The notes under the pieces: model-generated | The model's database searches: none | What the model was told of the DNA's origin: nothing | Seen by the model: the letters and a program-made list of their open reading frames with translations, nothing else | Shown here: positions 23,537-45,869 of the stretch, one piece after another | Position numbering within the stretch: the first letter of the stretch is position 1 | How the letters are laid out: the number at the start of each line of letters is the position of its first letter | Position numbers and translations under genes: made by a program | From: Limnohabitans planktonicus II-D5 | GTDB lineage: Bacteria; Pseudomonadota; Gammaproteobacteria; Burkholderiales; Burkholderiaceae_C | NCBI RefSeq assembly: GCF_001270065.2 | Contig: NZ_LFYT02000001.1 | Location: 186,001-250,000, forward strand | Length of the DNA: 64,000 bases | Direction: 5' to 3'

Positions 23537-25078
23537 ATGAAAAAACTACTCGCTACCTTGGCCTTGGGCCTGAGTTTGAGCCTGGGCCTGTTGGGCACCA
23601 GTTCGGTGGCCACCGCCCAGACCGCACCGGCCGCCGTGACGGCACCAGCTGAAGCCAAAGCCCCCGCAGCGGCCCCAGCTGCGGCTCCTGCTGCTGCGGT
23701 AGTTGCTGCACCCGCTGCACCCGCAGAAGCCGCCCCGGTGCCTGTGCCCAACAAGGGCGACACCGGCTGGATGCTGCTGTCCACCTTGCTGGTGCTCATG
23801 ATGGCTGTGCCTGGTCTGGCCCTGTTTTACGGCGGCCTGGTGCGCAGCAAGAACATGTTGTCGGTGCTCATGCAAGTCATGGTCACCTTCTCAATGATCC
23901 TGGTGCTGTGGTTCGTGTATGGCTACAGCCTGGCGTTCACCGAAGGCAATGCCTACATCGGCGGGCTGGATCGACTGTTCATGAAAGGCATCTGGGACAA
24001 CGCCACAGGCACGTTCGCGAATGCCGCCACCTTCTCCAAGGGGGTCTACATTCCTGAAGTCGTGTTCGCCGCATTCCAGGCCACTTTTGCGGGCATCACT
24101 TGCGCGCTGATCGTGGGTGCCTTTGCTGAGCGTGTGAAGTTCTCTGCTGTGCTGGCTTTCATGGTGCTGTGGTTCACCTTCAGCTACCTGCCGATCGCCC
24201 ACATGGTCTGGTTCTGGATGGGTCCTGACGCTTACGCATCCAAAGAAGTCGTGGACGAGATGACTTCCAAGGCCGGTCTGCTCTGGCAGTGGGGTGCGCT
24301 GGACTTCGCGGGCGGTACCGTGGTGCACATCAACGCCGCTGTCGCCGGTCTGGTCGGTGCCTTCATGATTGGCAAGCGCGTCGGTTACGGCCGTGAATCC
24401 ATGGCGCCTCACAGCCTGACATTGACCATGGTCGGCGCTGCCTTGCTGTGGGTAGGCTGGTTTGGCTTCAATGCAGGTTCCGCGCTCGAAGCCAACGGTT
24501 TCGCGGCTTTGGCCTTCATCAACACCATGATGGCCACCGCTGCCGCTGTGCTGGCCTGGTGCATGGGTGAAGCCCTGATGCGTGGCAAAGCCTCCATGCT
24601 GGGTGCTGCCTCTGGTGCTGTGGCTGGCTTGGTCGCCATCACGCCAGCGGCTGGCAACGTCGGTATCGGCGGTGGTGTGATCATCGGTTTCATTGCGGGT
24701 TTCGCCTGCCTGTGGGGTGTCAACGGCCTGAAGAAACTGCTGGGCGCTGACGACTCGCTGGACGTGTTCGGTGTGCACGGTGTGGGTGGCATCGTGGGGG
24801 CCTTGCTGACGGGCGTGTTCAACTCGCCATCCTTGGGCGGCCCCAGCGCCGTGGGCGACTGGGTCACGGTGAGCATGGTGACCGCTGACGCCTACTCCAT
24901 CGCTGCACAAGTGTGGACACAGGCCAAGGCCGTGCTGCTGACCATCGTCTGGTCGGGTGTGGTGTCGGTCCTTGCCTACAAGATCGTTGACCTGACCATC
25001 GGACTGCGCGTTACGGAAGAAGAAGAGCGCGAAGGTCTGGACATCTCCTCGCACGGCGAGTCGGCCTACCACGGTTGA
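23537..25078 (+). CDS. amtB: Ammonium transporter AmtB
   Basis: This 513-residue protein has an N-terminal signal-like segment (MKKLLATLALGLSLSLGLLG), an alanine/proline-rich extension and then eleven membrane helices. Family motifs are GDTGWMLLSTLLVLMM, FYGGLVRSKNMLS, WGALDFAGGTVVHINAAVAG and DVFGVHGVGGIVGALLTGVF, which include the pore-lining histidines. It conducts ammonium across the inner membrane and is gated by GlnK. The Ala/Pro-rich stretch between signal and first helix is unusually long. The last ~108 codons plus the terminator are duplicated at 29462-29876. Confidence 0.96.
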   Translation: MKKLLATLALGLSLSLGLLGTSSVATAQTAPAAVTAPAEAKAPAAAPAAAPAAAVVAAPAAPAEAAPVPVPNKGDTGWMLLSTLLVLMMAVPGLALFYGGLVRSKNMLSVLMQVMVTFSMILVLWFVYGYSLAFTEGNAYIGGLDRLFMKGIWDNATGTFANAATFSKGVYIPEVVFAAFQATFAGITCALIVGAFAERVKFSAVLAFMVLWFTFSYLPIAHMVWFWMGPDAYASKEVVDEMTSKAGLLWQWGALDFAGGTVVHINAAVAGLVGAFMIGKRVGYGRESMAPHSLTLTMVGAALLWVGWFGFNAGSALEANGFAALAFINTMMATAAAVLAWCMGEALMRGKASMLGAASGAVAGLVAITPAAGNVGIGGGVIIGFIAGFACLWGVNGLKKLLGADDSLDVFGVHGVGGIVGALLTGVFNSPSLGGPSAVGDWVTVSMVTADAYSIAAQVWTQAKAVLLTIVWSGVVSVLAYKIVDLTIGLRVTEEEEREGLDISSHGESAYHG

Positions 25079-29461: not shown

Positions 29462-29787
29462 ACTCGCTGGACGTGTTCGGCGTGCACGGTGTGGGCGGCA
29501 TCGTGGGGGCCTTGCTGACGGGTGTGTTCAACTCCCCATCCTTGGGCGGCCCCAGCGCCGTGGGCGACTGGGTGACGGTGAGCATGGTGACCGCTGACGC
29601 CTACTCCATCGCTGCACAAGTGTGGACCCAGGCCAAAGCCGTGCTGCTGACCATCGTCTGGTCGGGTGTGGTGTCGGTCGCCGCCTACAAGATCGTTGAC
29701 CTGACCATCGGCCTGCGCGTCACGGAAGAAGAAGAGCGCGAAGGTCTGGACATTTCTTCGCACGGCGAGTCGGCCTACCACGGTTGA
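29462..29787 (+). pseudogene. Truncated second copy of the amtB 3' end
   Basis: Bases 29462-29787 match amtB 24753-25078 codon for codon. The translation from NSLDVFGVHGVGGIVGALLTG to the end is identical except for one Leu-to-Ala change, while about a dozen other base differences are silent. An ATG at 29437 opens a short hybrid frame (MRLGGRHA before the homology), but the N-terminal ten helices are missing, so it cannot be a transporter. Homology continues through the terminator to about 29876. Confidence 0.93.
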
Positions 29788-35490: not shown

Positions 35491-35580
35491 ATCCAATACT
35501 GCGTGATCGGTGGGGAAGAGGGCGGGACGCGGCAAACCAGCAGCGACGCTTTTAATAGGCTTTTCACCAACTCGACCACA

Positions 35581-35872
35581 GCAACTGGATTGCCACGCTT
35601 CGCTCGCCATGACGGTGCTGAGGGTTTCCTGTCGTTGCGAGGAGCTTGCGACGCGGAAAATGAGCAGCGACGCCCACAAAAGGCGGTATCACCCACTCGA
35701 CCAAAGCAACTGGATTGCCACGCTTCGCTCGCAATGACGTTGGTGAGGGTGTCACGTCATTGCGAGGAGCCTGCGACGCGGCAATCCAGAAAAAGCGCAC
35801 GCTCAGGCTTTGGCTCCAGAATGAGCTCAGCAACTGGATTGCCGCGCTTCGCTCGCAATGACGGTAGTGAGG
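35581..35872 (+). repeat. Three copies of a CTGGATTGCC / GGCAATCCAG palindromic repeat
   Basis: Forward modules GCAACTGGATTGCCACGCTT, continuing CGCTCGCAATGACG, start at 35581, 35706 and 35830. Reversed modules (GTCATTGCGAGGAGC with GCGACGCGGCAATCCAG, or a decayed form) face them after the first and second copies. Together they form long inverted pairs with ~20-bp loops. The repeat lies in the convergent gap between the serine hydrolase and SET genes and is unrelated in sequence to the GTAGGTCGG family. Confidence 0.85.
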
Positions 35873-35943
35873 ACTCGCAATGACGGCGAAAGGGGTCAAT
35901 GACGAGAAGACGACATGCGGGATTGCAGTAACGGGTTGACCGC

Positions 35944-41498: not shown

Positions 41499-41549
41499 CT
41501 GGGTCTGAATCATCGCTCTGCCAAGGGCTGCTTTGCAGTGCTTCAAGCT

Positions 41550-41715
41550 ATTGATTCGGCCCTGTGCAGTATTCAATGGACAAAGAAGTTGTAGGTCGGC
41601 GGTCGAAGACCCCGACATGGGCCTGTGCTGAAACCACTCATGTCGGACTCTGCGAGTGCCGACCTACGAGATGACATGTTTCACGCATTTCTAACTTAAG
41701 CATGTCGGCTCCATA
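41550..41715 (-). repeat. GTAGGTCGG-family element, one unit, between converging genes
   Basis: The end ATTGATTCGGCCCTGTGCAG at 41550, then arms GTAGGTCGGCGGTCGAAGAC, CCCGACATGGG and CATGTCGGACTCTGCGAG, GTGCCGACCTAC. Flanking ATGACATGTTTCACGC marks the other side. The right end decays into TAGAAAACGCAG, which also begins the second element type. Confidence 0.9.
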
Positions 41716-41738: not shown

Positions 41739-44700
41739 TCAAGCACCCAGTGTCATCAAACTGGCGTTGCCTCCCGCAGCGGCTGTGTTGGTGCTGATGC
41801 TGCGCTCGCTCACCAGGCGCGCCAGCGGCACGGCGGCGTCGCCCGGGCGCAGGGCCGTGAGCGTGACGATGGCCCCCGGGCGCTGTGCCAGCTGCGCTTG
41901 CCAGTGCAGTGTGGTGGCTGCGTCGGCGTGCAGCAAGGCGGCGTCCACCGGGTGGCCGTTGGCGATCTCTTCCAGCGTCACCTGGCTTTGCACCGCCACG
42001 GGCAGCTGTGCGTGCAGCGCCTGGGCGGACAGGGGCCACACGGCGCAGCTGCCCACGGCCAGCACGGCGGCCACTTGCGTCAGGCGGTCGGCATCGGCCC
42101 CGGGCTGTTCGCCCGTCAGGCACAGCACTCGCCCACGGGCTTGCACACGGTAGACGTTGCGCTCGCCGGTGGGCCCGCTCAGGCTGGCTTGCAGACCCGC
42201 CGGGCTGTTCGCGGCAAATTGCGCGCACACATGTGCGAGCGGCAAACGGCCTTGGGCCACCGCCCAGTCGTGCAGGGCTTGCAGCGCAGGGGTGGCCTGG
42301 GGCAGCGATGCCGCGCCGCTGGCCTGCACGCTGCGCAAGGCGGCGTCCTGCGGGCAACGCGCCAACAATCGCAAAAGGTAAAGCGGCCCACCCGCCTTGG
42401 GGCCGGTGCCCGACAGGCCTTCGCCGCCAAAGGGCTGCACGCCCACCACCGCGCCCACCATGTTGCGGTTCACATAGACATTGCCCGCGTGGCTGTGGTC
42501 AATGACTTGAGCGATGGTTTCTTCGATGCGCGAGTGCACGCCCAGCGTGAGTGCGTAGCCGGTGTCGTGGATGGCTTGCAGCAGCTCGGGCAGTTCACTG
42601 CGGGCATAACGCACGATGTGCAGCACCGGGCCAAACACTTCGCGCTCCAGCTGGGCGATGCGGTCGATTTCGATCAGCGTGGGCTGGACGTAGGTGCCTG
42701 AGGGCAAGGCGTTGGAATTTTTTGTCCTTTCGGGTGTTGCGCTTTGCATGGATTTTGTGGGTGCTTGCCCTGCAAGCAATGGCCTGTGGTCCACATGCGT
42801 CGAATCGCCAGCAGGGCTGGTTCCTACAAAGCTGTGTGTCTGCAGATCGGTGGCTTGAGCCTCGACATGGGCCTGCGCCAAAGCCTGCAACGTCGGACCT
42901 GAAGGTGCCGACCTACGGGATGTCTGTAGGTCGGTGGCTTCAGCCCCGACAGGCGTCTGATCGCCCACGGGGTGGGCTTTTGCGATGGGCCACGCGTTCG
43001 TCTCATCCGGTGCGTTGCGGGAGATACGGTAAACGCGGCAGCCGCTTTGCTGCATGGCGCTCACATGCGCTTCGATGCCCATGCGGGCCCGCTCGTCGAT
43101 CACCGGCCCCATGTCCACCGCCAGATGCGCGGGCGCACCCATGCGGATTTCGGCCATGGCGCCTTGCAGCATCTCGACCAGGCGGTCGGCCACATCGCCC
43201 TGCACGCACAGCACGCGCAGGGCAGAGCAGCGCTGGCCGGCCGCCTCAAAGGCTGAAGCCACGGCGTCGGTCACGACTTGTTCGAGCAGGGCTGACGAGT
43301 CGACCACCATGCAGTTTTGACCACCGGTCTCGGCGATCAAGGGCACAGGTTGGCCATGCGCGTTCAGGCGCTCGGCCAGCGCCGCTTGCAGCACGCGGGC
43401 GGTCTCGGTGGAGCCGGTGAACAGCACGCCTTGTACGCGGGCGTCGCGCACCAGTTGCATGCCCACCTCGCGGCCTGGGCCCGGCAGCAGTTGCACAGCG
43501 GCCCGGGGCACGCCGGCTTGCCACAGCTTCTGCACGGCCAGTGCGGCGATGGCGGGGGTGGCTTCGGCCGGTTTGGCCAGCACCGGGTTGCCTGCGGCCA
43601 GCGCCGCAGCCACCTGCCCCACAAAAATCGCCAGCGGAAAATTCCACGGGCTGATGCACAGCACCGGGCCCAGCGGCGTGTGAGTGCTGTTGTCAAAGTC
43701 GCGGCGCACCTGTGCGGCGTAGTAGCGCAAAAAGTCTACCGCTTCGCGCTGCTCGGCCACGGCGTGTGCCCAGGTTTTGCCTGCTTCGCGCACCAGCAAA
43801 GCCATCACACGGGGTGCATCGGCCTGCAGCAGATCGGCCGCGTGCTCCAGCAAGGCGGCGCGTTGAGCGGGTGGTGTGGCGGCCCAGTCGGGGGCAATGC
43901 GGGTGGCGGCTTGCAGCGCAGCCTCCACATCGGCCGGGCTGGCGTATTGCACTGTGCCCAGCACGTCGCTGTGGTCGGCGGGGTTGCGCAGGGTGTGGAT
44001 GGCACCGCCCAAGGCAGGTGATGCGGTCAGAGGCGTCACCGTGACAGGCTTCACCTGCGTTTGCATGTCTGCGGCCAATTGGCGCAGCGTGGGCTCGTGC
44101 GCCAGGTCAGGCCCGCTGGAGTTGCGTCGGGCCGCGCCATAGAGCTGCGCGGGCAGCGCGATTTGCGGGTGGGGCTGGCCGGGGCTGCTGTCTTCGCGCT
44201 GGGCGTCTTCTTCGGTGCGAGCCACCGGGTCTTGCACAAGATCACTGATGGAAACGCTCAGGTCGGCCATGCGGTTCACGAATGAACTGTTGGCCCCGTT
44301 TTCGAGCAGGCGGCGCACCAGATAGGCCAGCAGGGTTTCATGTGTGCCCACCGGGGCGTAGATGCGGCAAGGGCGCTGAAACTGTCTACCCCCACGCAGG
44401 CTCACTTCGTGTAGCCCGCTGCCCCCCGAGGGGGTGCTCGCGCCTTGGGACGGCCCGGCGGCGCTCGCTCGCCCGACCACCTGCCGGTACAGCGGTTCGC
44501 CCATGCCGTGCAGGCACTGAAACTCGTATTGGCCCGGCGCGTAGTCGCCGTGCATGCCCTGGGCCATGCTCACAATGGCCGCCAGCGTGTGCGCGTTGTG
44601 CGTGGCAAATTGGGGATACACCGCATCCGGCGCGGCCAGCAGCTTTTGGGCGCAGGCCAGGTAAGACACATCGGTGTGGTGCTTGCGGGTGTAGACCGGG

Positions 44701-45869
44701 TAGTCGCTTTGCCCGTCCAGCTGGGCACGTTTGATCTCGCTGTCCCAATACGCGCCTTTGACCAGACGCACCATCAGCCGGTGGCCTGTGCGGCGTGCCA
44801 AGTCCACCACAAAGTCGATCACAAAAGGGCAGCGCTTTTGGTAAGCCTGGATCACAAAACCGATGCCGTGCCAGCCTTGCAGGCTAGGGGCCAAGCACAG
44901 GGCTTCGAGCAGGTCGAGCGAGATGTCCAGGCGGTCCACCTCTTCGGCGTCGATGTTCAGGCCGATGTCGTAGTGGCGGGCCAGCTCGGTGAGCTGCAAC
45001 ACGCGGGGCAACAGTTCATCCATCACGCGCTGGTGCTGGGCGCGGCTGTAGCGCGGGTGCAGGGCCGACAACTTGATCGAAATGCCCGGGCCGTTCACCA
45101 CGCCTTGGCCCTTGGATGCCTGGCCAATCGCGTGGATGGCGTTTTCATAGGCCTGCATGTAACGCTGCGCGTCGGCTTCGGTCAGCGCCGCTTCGCCCAG
45201 CATGTCGTAGGAGTAGCGAAAGCCTTGCGCCTCCATGGCGCGGGCGCGGTGCAGGGCTTCGTCAATCGTCTCGCCCGTCACAAACTGCTCGCCCAGCATC
45301 TGCATGGCCAGCTGCACGCCCTGGCGGATCAGCGGCTCGCCGCTTTTGCCGATCAGCCGGGTGAGCGAGGCCAGCATCGCGCCCTCGCTGTGGGTGGCCA
45401 CCAGCTTGCCCGTGAGCAGCAGGCCCCAGGACGCGGCGTTCACAAACAGCGACGGGCTGCGGCCCACATGCTGGTGCCAGTCACCCTGGCCAATCTTGTC
45501 GCGGATCAGCGCGTCGCGCGTGGCTGCGTCCGGAATGCGCAGCAGCCCCTCGGCCAGGCACATCAGGGCCACGCCTTCTTCGCTGGACAGCGCGTAGGTC
45601 TGCATCAGGCTTTGCACGCGGCCTGCACGTCCGCCTTGTTGTGGGCCTTCGCGCATGCCCCTCACCAGTTGGCGGGCCAGCGCGTCGGTGCGTTCGGCTT
45701 GGGGGCCGCTCATGCGTGCGGCGGCCAGCAAGGGGGCCAGGGCCTGCGCTTCAGGCAAGCGGGTGGCGCGGGCGATGGCTTCGCGCAGGGCGCTGCGCTC
45801 GTGCAAGGCGCCGCCGGGGGTGAAGAGGGCTGCGTCAGGTAAAGGGATCGGGATGATGGCGGCATTCAT
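41739..45869 (-). CDS. putA: Bifunctional proline dehydrogenase / L-glutamate gamma-semialdehyde dehydrogenase PutA, with two repeat-derived insertions
   Basis: This 1376-residue protein oxidises proline to glutamate. Residues ~60-540 form the proline dehydrogenase barrel (LSALHPRYSRAQHQRV, AYQKRCPFVIDFV, LVKGAYWDSEIKRAQ, RIYAPVGTHETLLAYLVRRL). Residues ~630-1130 are the aldehyde dehydrogenase domain (SPWNFPLAIFVGQVAAALAA, Glu847 in AETGGQN, catalytic Cys881 in GQRCSAL), followed by a C-terminal domain. No N-terminal DNA-binding domain is seen, so autoregulation is unlikely. Two stretches that look foreign keep the frame: residues ~467-498 and ~951-1053. The first encodes an intergenic-type repeat and the second the REP and GTAGGTCGG repeats. 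Without them the length would be about 1240. ATG 45869 (MNAAIIPIPLPD) is the likely start. Confidence 0.93.
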   Translation of the reverse strand: MNAAIIPIPLPDAALFTPGGALHERSALREAIARATRLPEAQALAPLLAAARMSGPQAERTDALARQLVRGMREGPQQGGRAGRVQSLMQTYALSSEEGVALMCLAEGLLRIPDAATRDALIRDKIGQGDWHQHVGRSPSLFVNAASWGLLLTGKLVATHSEGAMLASLTRLIGKSGEPLIRQGVQLAMQMLGEQFVTGETIDEALHRARAMEAQGFRYSYDMLGEAALTEADAQRYMQAYENAIHAIGQASKGQGVVNGPGISIKLSALHPRYSRAQHQRVMDELLPRVLQLTELARHYDIGLNIDAEEVDRLDISLDLLEALCLAPSLQGWHGIGFVIQAYQKRCPFVIDFVVDLARRTGHRLMVRLVKGAYWDSEIKRAQLDGQSDYPVYTRKHHTDVSYLACAQKLLAAPDAVYPQFATHNAHTLAAIVSMAQGMHGDYAPGQYEFQCLHGMGEPLYRQVVGRASAAGPSQGASTPSGGSGLHEVSLRGGRQFQRPCRIYAPVGTHETLLAYLVRRLLENGANSSFVNRMADLSVSISDLVQDPVARTEEDAQREDSSPGQPHPQIALPAQLYGAARRNSSGPDLAHEPTLRQLAADMQTQVKPVTVTPLTASPALGGAIHTLRNPADHSDVLGTVQYASPADVEAALQAATRIAPDWAATPPAQRAALLEHAADLLQADAPRVMALLVREAGKTWAHAVAEQREAVDFLRYYAAQVRRDFDNSTHTPLGPVLCISPWNFPLAIFVGQVAAALAAGNPVLAKPAEATPAIAALAVQKLWQAGVPRAAVQLLPGPGREVGMQLVRDARVQGVLFTGSTETARVLQAALAERLNAHGQPVPLIAETGGQNCMVVDSSALLEQVVTDAVASAFEAAGQRCSALRVLCVQGDVADRLVEMLQGAMAEIRMGAPAHLAVDMGPVIDERARMGIEAHVSAMQQSGCRVYRISRNAPDETNAWPIAKAHPVGDQTPVGAEATDLQTSRRSAPSGPTLQALAQAHVEAQATDLQTHSFVGTSPAGDSTHVDHRPLLAGQAPTKSMQSATPERTKNSNALPSGTYVQPTLIEIDRIAQLEREVFGPVLHIVRYARSELPELLQAIHDTGYALTLGVHSRIEETIAQVIDHSHAGNVYVNRNMVGAVVGVQPFGGEGLSGTGPKAGGPLYLLRLLARCPQDAALRSVQASGAASLPQATPALQALHDWAVAQGRLPLAHVCAQFAANSPAGLQASLSGPTGERNVYRVQARGRVLCLTGEQPGADADRLTQVAAVLAVGSCAVWPLSAQALHAQLPVAVQSQVTLEEIANGHPVDAALLHADAATTLHWQAQLAQRPGAIVTLTALRPGDAAVPLARLVSERSISTNTAAAGGNASLMTLGA
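42711..43020 (-). repeat. Repeat-derived insert in the putA aldehyde dehydrogenase domain
   Basis: About 310 bp inside putA. A reversed REP-like sequence (GAATCGCCAGCAGGGCTGG, TTCCTACAAAG) is followed by a GTAGGTCGG-family hairpin (GATCGGTGGCTTGAGCCTCG, CATGGGCCTG, GTCGGACCTGAAGGTGCCGA). A second left arm TGTAGGTCGGTGGCTTCAGC at 42924 then matches the variant at 18886. It is open in frame and adds about 103 residues between VYRIS and ALPSGTYVQP. Confidence 0.88.
44377..44470 (-). repeat. Repeat-derived insert in the putA proline dehydrogenase region
   Basis: About 93 bp with AAACTGTCTACCCCCACGCA, TCACTTCGTGTAGCCCGCTG and CCCCCCGAGGGGGTGCTCGC. This resembles an intergenic repeat I recall from Comamonadaceae genomes. 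It adds about 31 residues (GPSQGASTPSGGSGLHEVSL) between YRQVVGR and RPCRIYAPVG, where other PutA proteins have a short loop. Confidence 0.75.

Follow-up and report, generated by a model that had tools for sequence, protein, structure and literature searches.

The putA gene of Limnohabitans planktonicus II-D5 lies on the minus strand at 41739..45869 of the window, the 64,000-nt stretch of contig NZ_LFYT02000001.1 analyzed here. From an ATG at 45869, it encodes a 1376-aa proline dehydrogenase / L-glutamate gamma-semialdehyde dehydrogenase, which matches NF008772 and has the full PutA set of Pfam domains (Pro_dh, Aldedh, and the DNA-binding and N-terminal domains). A sequence-only reading of this DNA had claimed that two repeat-derived insertions, at residues ~467–498 and ~951–1053, interrupt the protein while keeping the frame open. 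We place them at residues 467–494 and 956–1053, and the reading frame indeed runs uninterrupted from 45890 to 41739. Insert 1, RASAAGPSQGASTPSGGSGLHEVSLRGG (44388..44471, minus strand; 84 nt, 28 codons), is a single copy of a repeat. Insert 2 (42711..43004, minus strand; 294 nt, 98 codons) is a composite derived from REP sequences. The catalytic residues Glu847 and Cys881 (E715 and C749 of the modeled fragment; offset, 132) are retained, as the reading had it: both are invariant in an alignment of 48 PutA sequences. No domain pointing to an intein or a bypassed segment was found in a Pfam scan of the protein.

Both inserts had been said to fall where other PutA proteins have short surface loops. 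The structure of SmPutA (5KF6) agrees, with short loops, i.e. empty sites, at both positions. We also modeled PutA residues 133–1327 with AlphaFold2, using the 48-sequence alignment. The model has a mean pLDDT of 75. Foldseek places PutA structures at the top of its matches; where a species is named, it is S. meliloti. Six segments have pLDDT below 50. One of them (335–362 in model numbering) is exactly insert 1, and another (820–920) falls on insert 2 (824–921). The other four are 1–60, 386–406, 435–445 and 1005–1027, so low confidence is not peculiar to the inserts. Judging from the model, both inserts are low-confidence, probably floppy loops.

Occurrence of the inserts in related genomes

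The genus set comprised 90 genomes, 21 of them with a PutA match. We aligned 20 genus PutAs and six from outside that set, leaving aside G129, which a contig end truncates, and G037, a fragment in which insert 2 was not seen. Insert 1 is present in nine of the 20 genus PutAs, at the same position and in frame in all nine, with nine codons gone in G011. Insert 2 is present in three: the II-D5 genome, G121 and G059 (Limnohabitans sp. DM1). An ancient conserved domain is rejected by this distribution, with insert 1 missing from 11/20 and insert 2 from 17/20 genus PutAs, and both from 6/6 outside. Comparison with close relatives thus showed many of them to lack the segments, which are nevertheless not restricted to one strain, as 9/20 and 3/20 genus PutAs have them.

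The ends of insert 2 are similar in the three genomes and its content differs, yet every length is in frame. Insert 2 encodes 98 aa in II-D5, ~124 aa in DM1 and ~203 aa in G121; between flanking anchors there are 112, 138 and 217 residues, respectively, versus 14 in L. radicicola. These in-frame increases in length bear out the suggestion that the insert grew at one tolerant place. On the putA tree, G043 groups with the three insert-2 genomes; it has 96 matches to insert 2 (REP-A rich), yet both inserts are absent from its putA, a point against the explanation favored below. Searches of nine relatives with insert 2 gave matches in seven and none in G013 or G011. Rows with and without insert 1 are interspersed on the tree (a by-eye reading, with several weak forks). 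The table of tree groups compares the two insert groups solely against each other.

These genomes also bear on whether the inserts could be a sequencing or assembly artefact. The II-D5 assembly is a 4.87-Mb draft in 152 contigs, which leaves some room for error. Nonetheless, in G121 and DM1, which are separate genomes, arrays of other lengths occupy the insert-2 site, and insert 1 is found in nine genomes. An error that disrupts the frame here is very improbable, since separate genomes carry the inserts in frame, and we reject the artefact as next to impossible.

The PutAs of PBBC1 and L. parvus (L042, L047) have six extra residues in the N-terminal region, in MREGQRGRAGSPLSG, which the other rows of that alignment block lack.

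Repeat content of insert 2

Insert 2 consists of two REP families, in line with the claim that the larger insert is a composite. In the direction of translation, it begins with a head, ETNAWPIAKAHPVG (42963..43004, minus strand), common to DM1 and partly to G121. This is followed by a single REP-A of the GTAGGTCGG family (42924..42961, plus strand), a bulged hairpin antisense to putA, and by an 84-nt REPIN-A unit, TSRRSAPSGPTLQALAQAHVEAQATDLQ (42840..42923, minus strand), present once in II-D5, four times in G121 and not at all in DM1. DM1 has instead a 162-nt tandem duplication with no extra REPIN-A unit. A REPIN-B of ~99 nt made of two inverted REPs comes next (42731..42829, minus strand), reading GTAGGAACC in II-D5 and GTAGGAGCC in DM1 and G121. 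The tail, MQSATPERTKNSN, starts at 42749, extends past the repeat (42711..42730, minus strand) and is present with small changes in all three genomes. The peptide encoded within insert 2 includes SAPSGPTLQALAQAHVEAQATDLQ. Directly 3′ of the putA stop lies an intergenic REPIN of family A (41548..41714).

Both families are abundant in the II-D5 genome. A 501-nt query across insert 2 gave at least 171 matches in this genome, itself included, and its two halves hit different sets of places; the best matches outside putA had E-values of 1.4e-35 on the REP-A side and 1.2e-25 on the REP-B side. Separate searches (E ≤ 0.01, putA included) gave at least 189 matches for REP-A and at least 52 for REP-B. 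These counts, like those for the insert-1 repeat in the family below, are lower bounds because part of the candidates was scored. REP-A is dispersed throughout the window, and the REP-B repeat unit is ~99 nt. Both families form GTAG-tagged hairpins, bulged in REP-A and a perfect stem in REP-B. Insert 2 thus has the features of GTAG REPs and REPINs, namely the GTAG tag and palindrome, high copy number, mostly intergenic location and inverted pairs.

To place these repeats relative to genes, we surveyed the window and 77 fetched stretches of the same genome (70 at listed REP matches, four at insert-1 copies and three at transposase genes). The survey gave 135 merged REP clusters, in the window and 74 of the 77 stretches. 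We then scanned with Pfam the ORFs that span a cluster, putA and nine others picked by eye, leaving out the smaller candidates. Only putA had domains on both sides of the cluster. Eight of the others had no Pfam match, and in L153 a match to NinE falls within the repeats themselves. These data support the view that mostly intergenic repeats have turned protein-coding in two PutA loops. The idea that the repeats are otherwise intergenic stands for this genome; it does not hold for the insert-1 repeat in the family at large, which recurs inside conserved genes (see below).

Outside the putA insert, the surveyed sequence contains 130 near-full REPIN-A copies. The length of 37 is compatible with the reading frame, 88 are free of stop codons in the frame used in putA, and 33 combine both properties. 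Spacings between neighboring REPIN-A copies are divisible by three in 24 of 113 cases and equal 84 nt in no case. These figures speak for a frame filter on the putA copies.

Candidate movers of the REPs

The genome has four Y1_Tnp hits, on contigs C16, C25, C1 and C22. We scanned the fetched 3.2–3.3 kb around each for exact REP words. The C16 gene has many GTAGGTCGG words and the C25 gene has GTAGGAGC words, on both flanks in each case. Three GTAGGTCGG words lie near the C1 hit, and none of the REP words was found in the stretch around the C22 hit. The C16 and C25 genes score 179.7 and 145 bits, respectively, against NF047646 (REP-associated tyrosine transposase; cut-off, 80). For both families of insert 2, then, a tyrosine transposase gene is flanked by the same REPs. 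Since these RAYT-type genes lie between REPs of the same family, REP-A and REP-B would each have a resident candidate mover, which may have acted on putA.

A family-wide repeat in insert 1

The repeat of insert 1 is ~80 nt long, and most matches to it span 44389–44466. There are four additional matches in the II-D5 genome, and the repeat was matched in at least 50 of 60 family genomes (one per genus, II-D5 included). For both inserts, matches in this genome or in the family are far above chance, in keeping with the claim that they are made of repeats. Across 39 copies with their flanks, no constant target duplication was seen by eye.

We also searched 200 family genomes with the insert-1 peptide, a search that detects the +0 frame exclusively. 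Matches occurred in at least 47 genomes, many of them within long open frames; we took the best matches listed plus 40 places hand-picked for long open frames, so the share of internal insertions is not an unbiased rate. Host proteins were assigned by Pfam and NCBIfam scans. The repeat is in frame within ~15 further conserved proteins of the family, making 16 protein families with putA. Acetoacetyl-CoA synthetase carries it in several genera, in tandem in some (two copies in G226 and G065, three in G171) and at a second site in G277. Two genomes each have it in the glycine cleavage T protein, GcvT (G109, G086), the biotin carboxylase part of an acyl-CoA carboxylase (G193, G060), RadA (G065, G107) and long UvrA paralogues (G101, G109). 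Single cases are RecQ, RecJ, IcmF, TrpE, a Beta_elim_lyase protein, Mpl, a DUF2126 protein, the receiver of a hybrid histidine kinase (three copies) and, the weakest case, a peptidase M16. On a plasmid of Rhodoferax antarcticus, a 50-nt match to the repeat lies in a gene for a Fic protein, after the Fic domain.

Alignments of host proteins to solved structures split in two exactly at the repeat copy. In RecQ, repeat residues 387–413 stand against one residue in the solved structure; there, the first cysteine of the zinc site precedes the repeat and the CxxCxxC part follows it. The corresponding figures are residues 177–206 against three for GcvT, 282–316 against one for the carboxylase, 313–347 against four for TrpE and 429–530 against nine for acetoacetyl-CoA synthetase. 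Several hosts are DNA repair proteins: RecQ, RecJ, RadA and the UvrA paralogues (L302, L304, L255, L326, L294, L296). Intragenic REPs in DNA repair genes are likewise described in PMC3733652.

Which frame of the repeat is read was assessed at 39 places, the first distinct ones by DNA similarity to the putA copy (putA excluded, array neighbors counted once). At ten of them the copy sits within a conserved protein (GcvT and RadA, two each; UvrA paralogue, M16, Mpl, carboxylase, IcmF and acetoacetyl-CoA synthetase, one each), and every one of these copies uses the sense +0 frame, as in putA; this sample comes from few genomes, its query is coded in +0 and may favor copies constrained in that frame, and hits in the same protein family may be non-independent. 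At another ten, the copy coincides with the N terminus of a Pfam protein or precedes it; the frame is +0 in six, +2 in one and antisense in three. At the remaining 19, a Pfam-supported spanning ORF was not found among the 48 of 64 candidate ORFs scanned, the other 16 being short or antisense. Among the 29 other copies, the three sense frames are open in 26, 8 and 24, and the three antisense frames in 26, 28 and 27. With five frames out of six usually open, the +0 bias is not a matter of stop codons alone. The combined share of A, G, P, S, E, K and Q is highest in the +0 frame in both copies tested. NTG AGC GCC, with a possible start codon, opens many of the 39 listed copies, and several copies lie just after or over gene starts.

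A tentative interpretation, to which we give somewhat less than even weight, takes the insert-1 repeat for a mobile element of protein grade that is spread across the family. Of its six frames, one would encode a linker rich in Gly, Pro, Ser and Ala (SAAGPPQGAKAPSGGS...GERGG), kept in core enzymes as a harmless linker, and the element itself may have been selected for readability there. If this is true, coding DNA would be a safe habitat for a mobile repeat, and many proteins would gain new loops over time. Among the open-access papers listed for Comamonadaceae and Burkholderiales repeats and for Limnohabitans REPs, titles and abstract openings gave no description of this repeat, and its hairpin string gave an unrelated match only.

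A probably permissive loop in acetoacetyl-CoA synthetase

The stretch of acetoacetyl-CoA synthetase that holds the repeat was matched in 66 of 120 family genomes searched. We compared the 30 loci that scored best (L343–L372); as the query holds the repeat, the shares that follow are not rates. Nineteen of these best loci, that of II-D5 among them, have a short loop ahead of the WWCNISGGTDF strand. In seven others the loop contains the insert-1 repeat, intact or worn, in two (G088, G101) a different palindromic sequence, and in two (L350, L352) other extra residues. In G101 the exact pattern of the second palindrome occurs once more, whereas G088 has no further copy, weak support for its being a dispersed repeat. 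That unrelated sequences fill one loop favors a permissive site over a shared function. This loop offers a direct test ground for which loops tolerate insertions and for when a passenger turns functional.

Sequence evolution and origin of the inserts

Among the eight complete copies of insert 1, pS and pN are both 0.072, giving a dN/dS of 0.99 (28 pooled pairs, which are not independent). For the putA core of eight sequences, the values are 0.339 for pS, 0.056 for pN and 0.13 for dN/dS (28 pooled pairs). The 28-codon windows flanking insert 1 have a pS of 0.29 and 0.33, and none of 74 overlapping core windows is as low as 0.072. Taken together, we read these values as an absence of protein-level constraint on insert 1 and as a spread that probably came after the host putA alleles had diverged. 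Recombination between alleles is a plausible route, because distant alleles can have near-identical right flanks: those of T6-20 and L. radicicola differ at 3/84 sites, though the two belong to different tree groups.

The low pS of insert 1 could alternatively reflect constraint at the nucleotide level rather than recent spread. A function of the DNA or RNA might be under selection (a protein-binding site, mRNA stability or an active transposition substrate), with coding incidental; synonymous divergence equal to nonsynonymous, and far below that of neighboring windows, speaks for this. But insert 1 as single-stranded DNA folds no better than shuffled sequences (z = 0.10), and allele recombination, suggested by the T6-20 and L. 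radicicola flank, would also lower pS. We regard such a function as unlikely.

For insert 2, pN and pS are 0.132 and 0.299 between II-D5 and DM1, 0.113 and 0.257 between G121 and DM1, and 0.093 and 0.113 between II-D5 and G121. With pN somewhat below pS, weak protein-level constraint on insert 2 is possible, although the insert may be neutral.

Recruitment of the inserts for a function in the protein, such as that of linkers adjusting how PutA channels its substrate or forms oligomers, would fit with insert 1 being in frame in every genus carrier and with insert 2 keeping its frame through three array sizes. It is hard to reconcile with the dN/dS of insert 1, the loss of nine of its codons in G011, the interspersion of carriers and non-carriers on the tree, the absence of a fold at the inserts in the model, and the unrelated extra sequences in the acetoacetyl-CoA synthetase loop. 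Recruitment is thus improbable, slightly more so than a nucleotide-level function.

Instead, we consider it very probable that the inserts are tolerated passengers filtered for frame, mobile repeats of two classes in a pair of PutA surface loops that permit insertion. Short repeats of both classes would have landed in these loops and been retained where the frame stayed open and the fold was undisturbed; the inserts would be translated, presumably within an active enzyme. Insert 2 would derive from REPINs, its likely movers being the RAYTs that lie between same-family REPs elsewhere in the genome. Growth, probably by tandem duplication, would have followed in steps divisible by three: 84 nt for each REPIN-A unit of G121, and 162 nt for DM1. 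As for insert 1, a single copy of a repeat present across the family, the putA alleles of Limnohabitans had probably diverged before it spread among them, perhaps by recombination.

Relation to known intragenic repeats

Rickettsia palindromic elements (RPEs) are short repeats found between genes and in frame within conserved genes (Ogata et al. 2000, as described in PMC2229807 and PMC3733652); a guanylate kinase with an RPE is reported to be still active, with altered substrate affinity (PMC2229807). The putA repeats are similar: they too lie in frame within a conserved gene, and relatives have the sites empty. The insert-1 repeat in particular resembles RPEs. The lineage is a different one, and the likeness is one of phenomenon rather than of compared sequences. 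Unlike the RPE case, two unrelated repeat classes occupy one gene, insert 2 is an array of variable length, and the insert-1 repeat occurs in numerous genera within a single family.

Intragenic GTAG/CGTC REPs have been described in ORFs, often as dimers or clusters and many in DNA repair genes such as uvrA, with clusters in two taxa coding for 43–82 aa (Di Nocera et al. 2013, PMC3733652). The GTAG REPs of putA likewise lie in an ORF, but code for larger segments (98, ~124 and ~203 aa in II-D5, DM1 and G121), and two REP families share one site, with copy number varying between related genomes. The terms Limnohabitans, Comamonad- and Burkholderiales are absent from the main text of that paper. 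REPIN/RAYT systems are characterized by inverted REP pairs, a GTAG motif and a tyrosine transposase flanked by REPs (PMC3116915, PMC8266576), and recognition of REPs by TnpA-REP is described in PMC8266576. Whereas REPs are extragenic by name, the REPIN units of putA form an array in an enzyme gene that would be translated. Intragenic bacterial MITEs (ERIC/RU-1, Correia) are small and non-autonomous, with ORFs fused in frame to host genes (PMC2229807). The in-frame fusion is shared by the insert-1 repeat, for which neither a terminal inverted repeat nor a target duplication was established.

With intragenic REPs, RPEs and MITEs already described, the putA case is a new, large example of a known phenomenon, and the recurrent, family-wide insert-1 repeat is the less expected part. 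These are bacterial protein segments newly made from mobile DNA, with empty sites, length variants and sister species at hand for comparison. Such repeats also cause odd protein lengths and false features in annotation.

Other repeats in the window and genome

L195 (G000:C34:17500-21300) contains a tandem array of REP-B that repeats every 150 nt and is open on both strands for more than 560 codons. A stretch similar to the beginning of the downstream frame recurs in each unit, and the array has no Pfam match. A separate repeat family lies at 35564–35908 of the window, in three copies ~125 nt apart. The window also contains a 300-nt direct duplication, at 24753–25052 and 29462–29761, with 95% identity between the copies.
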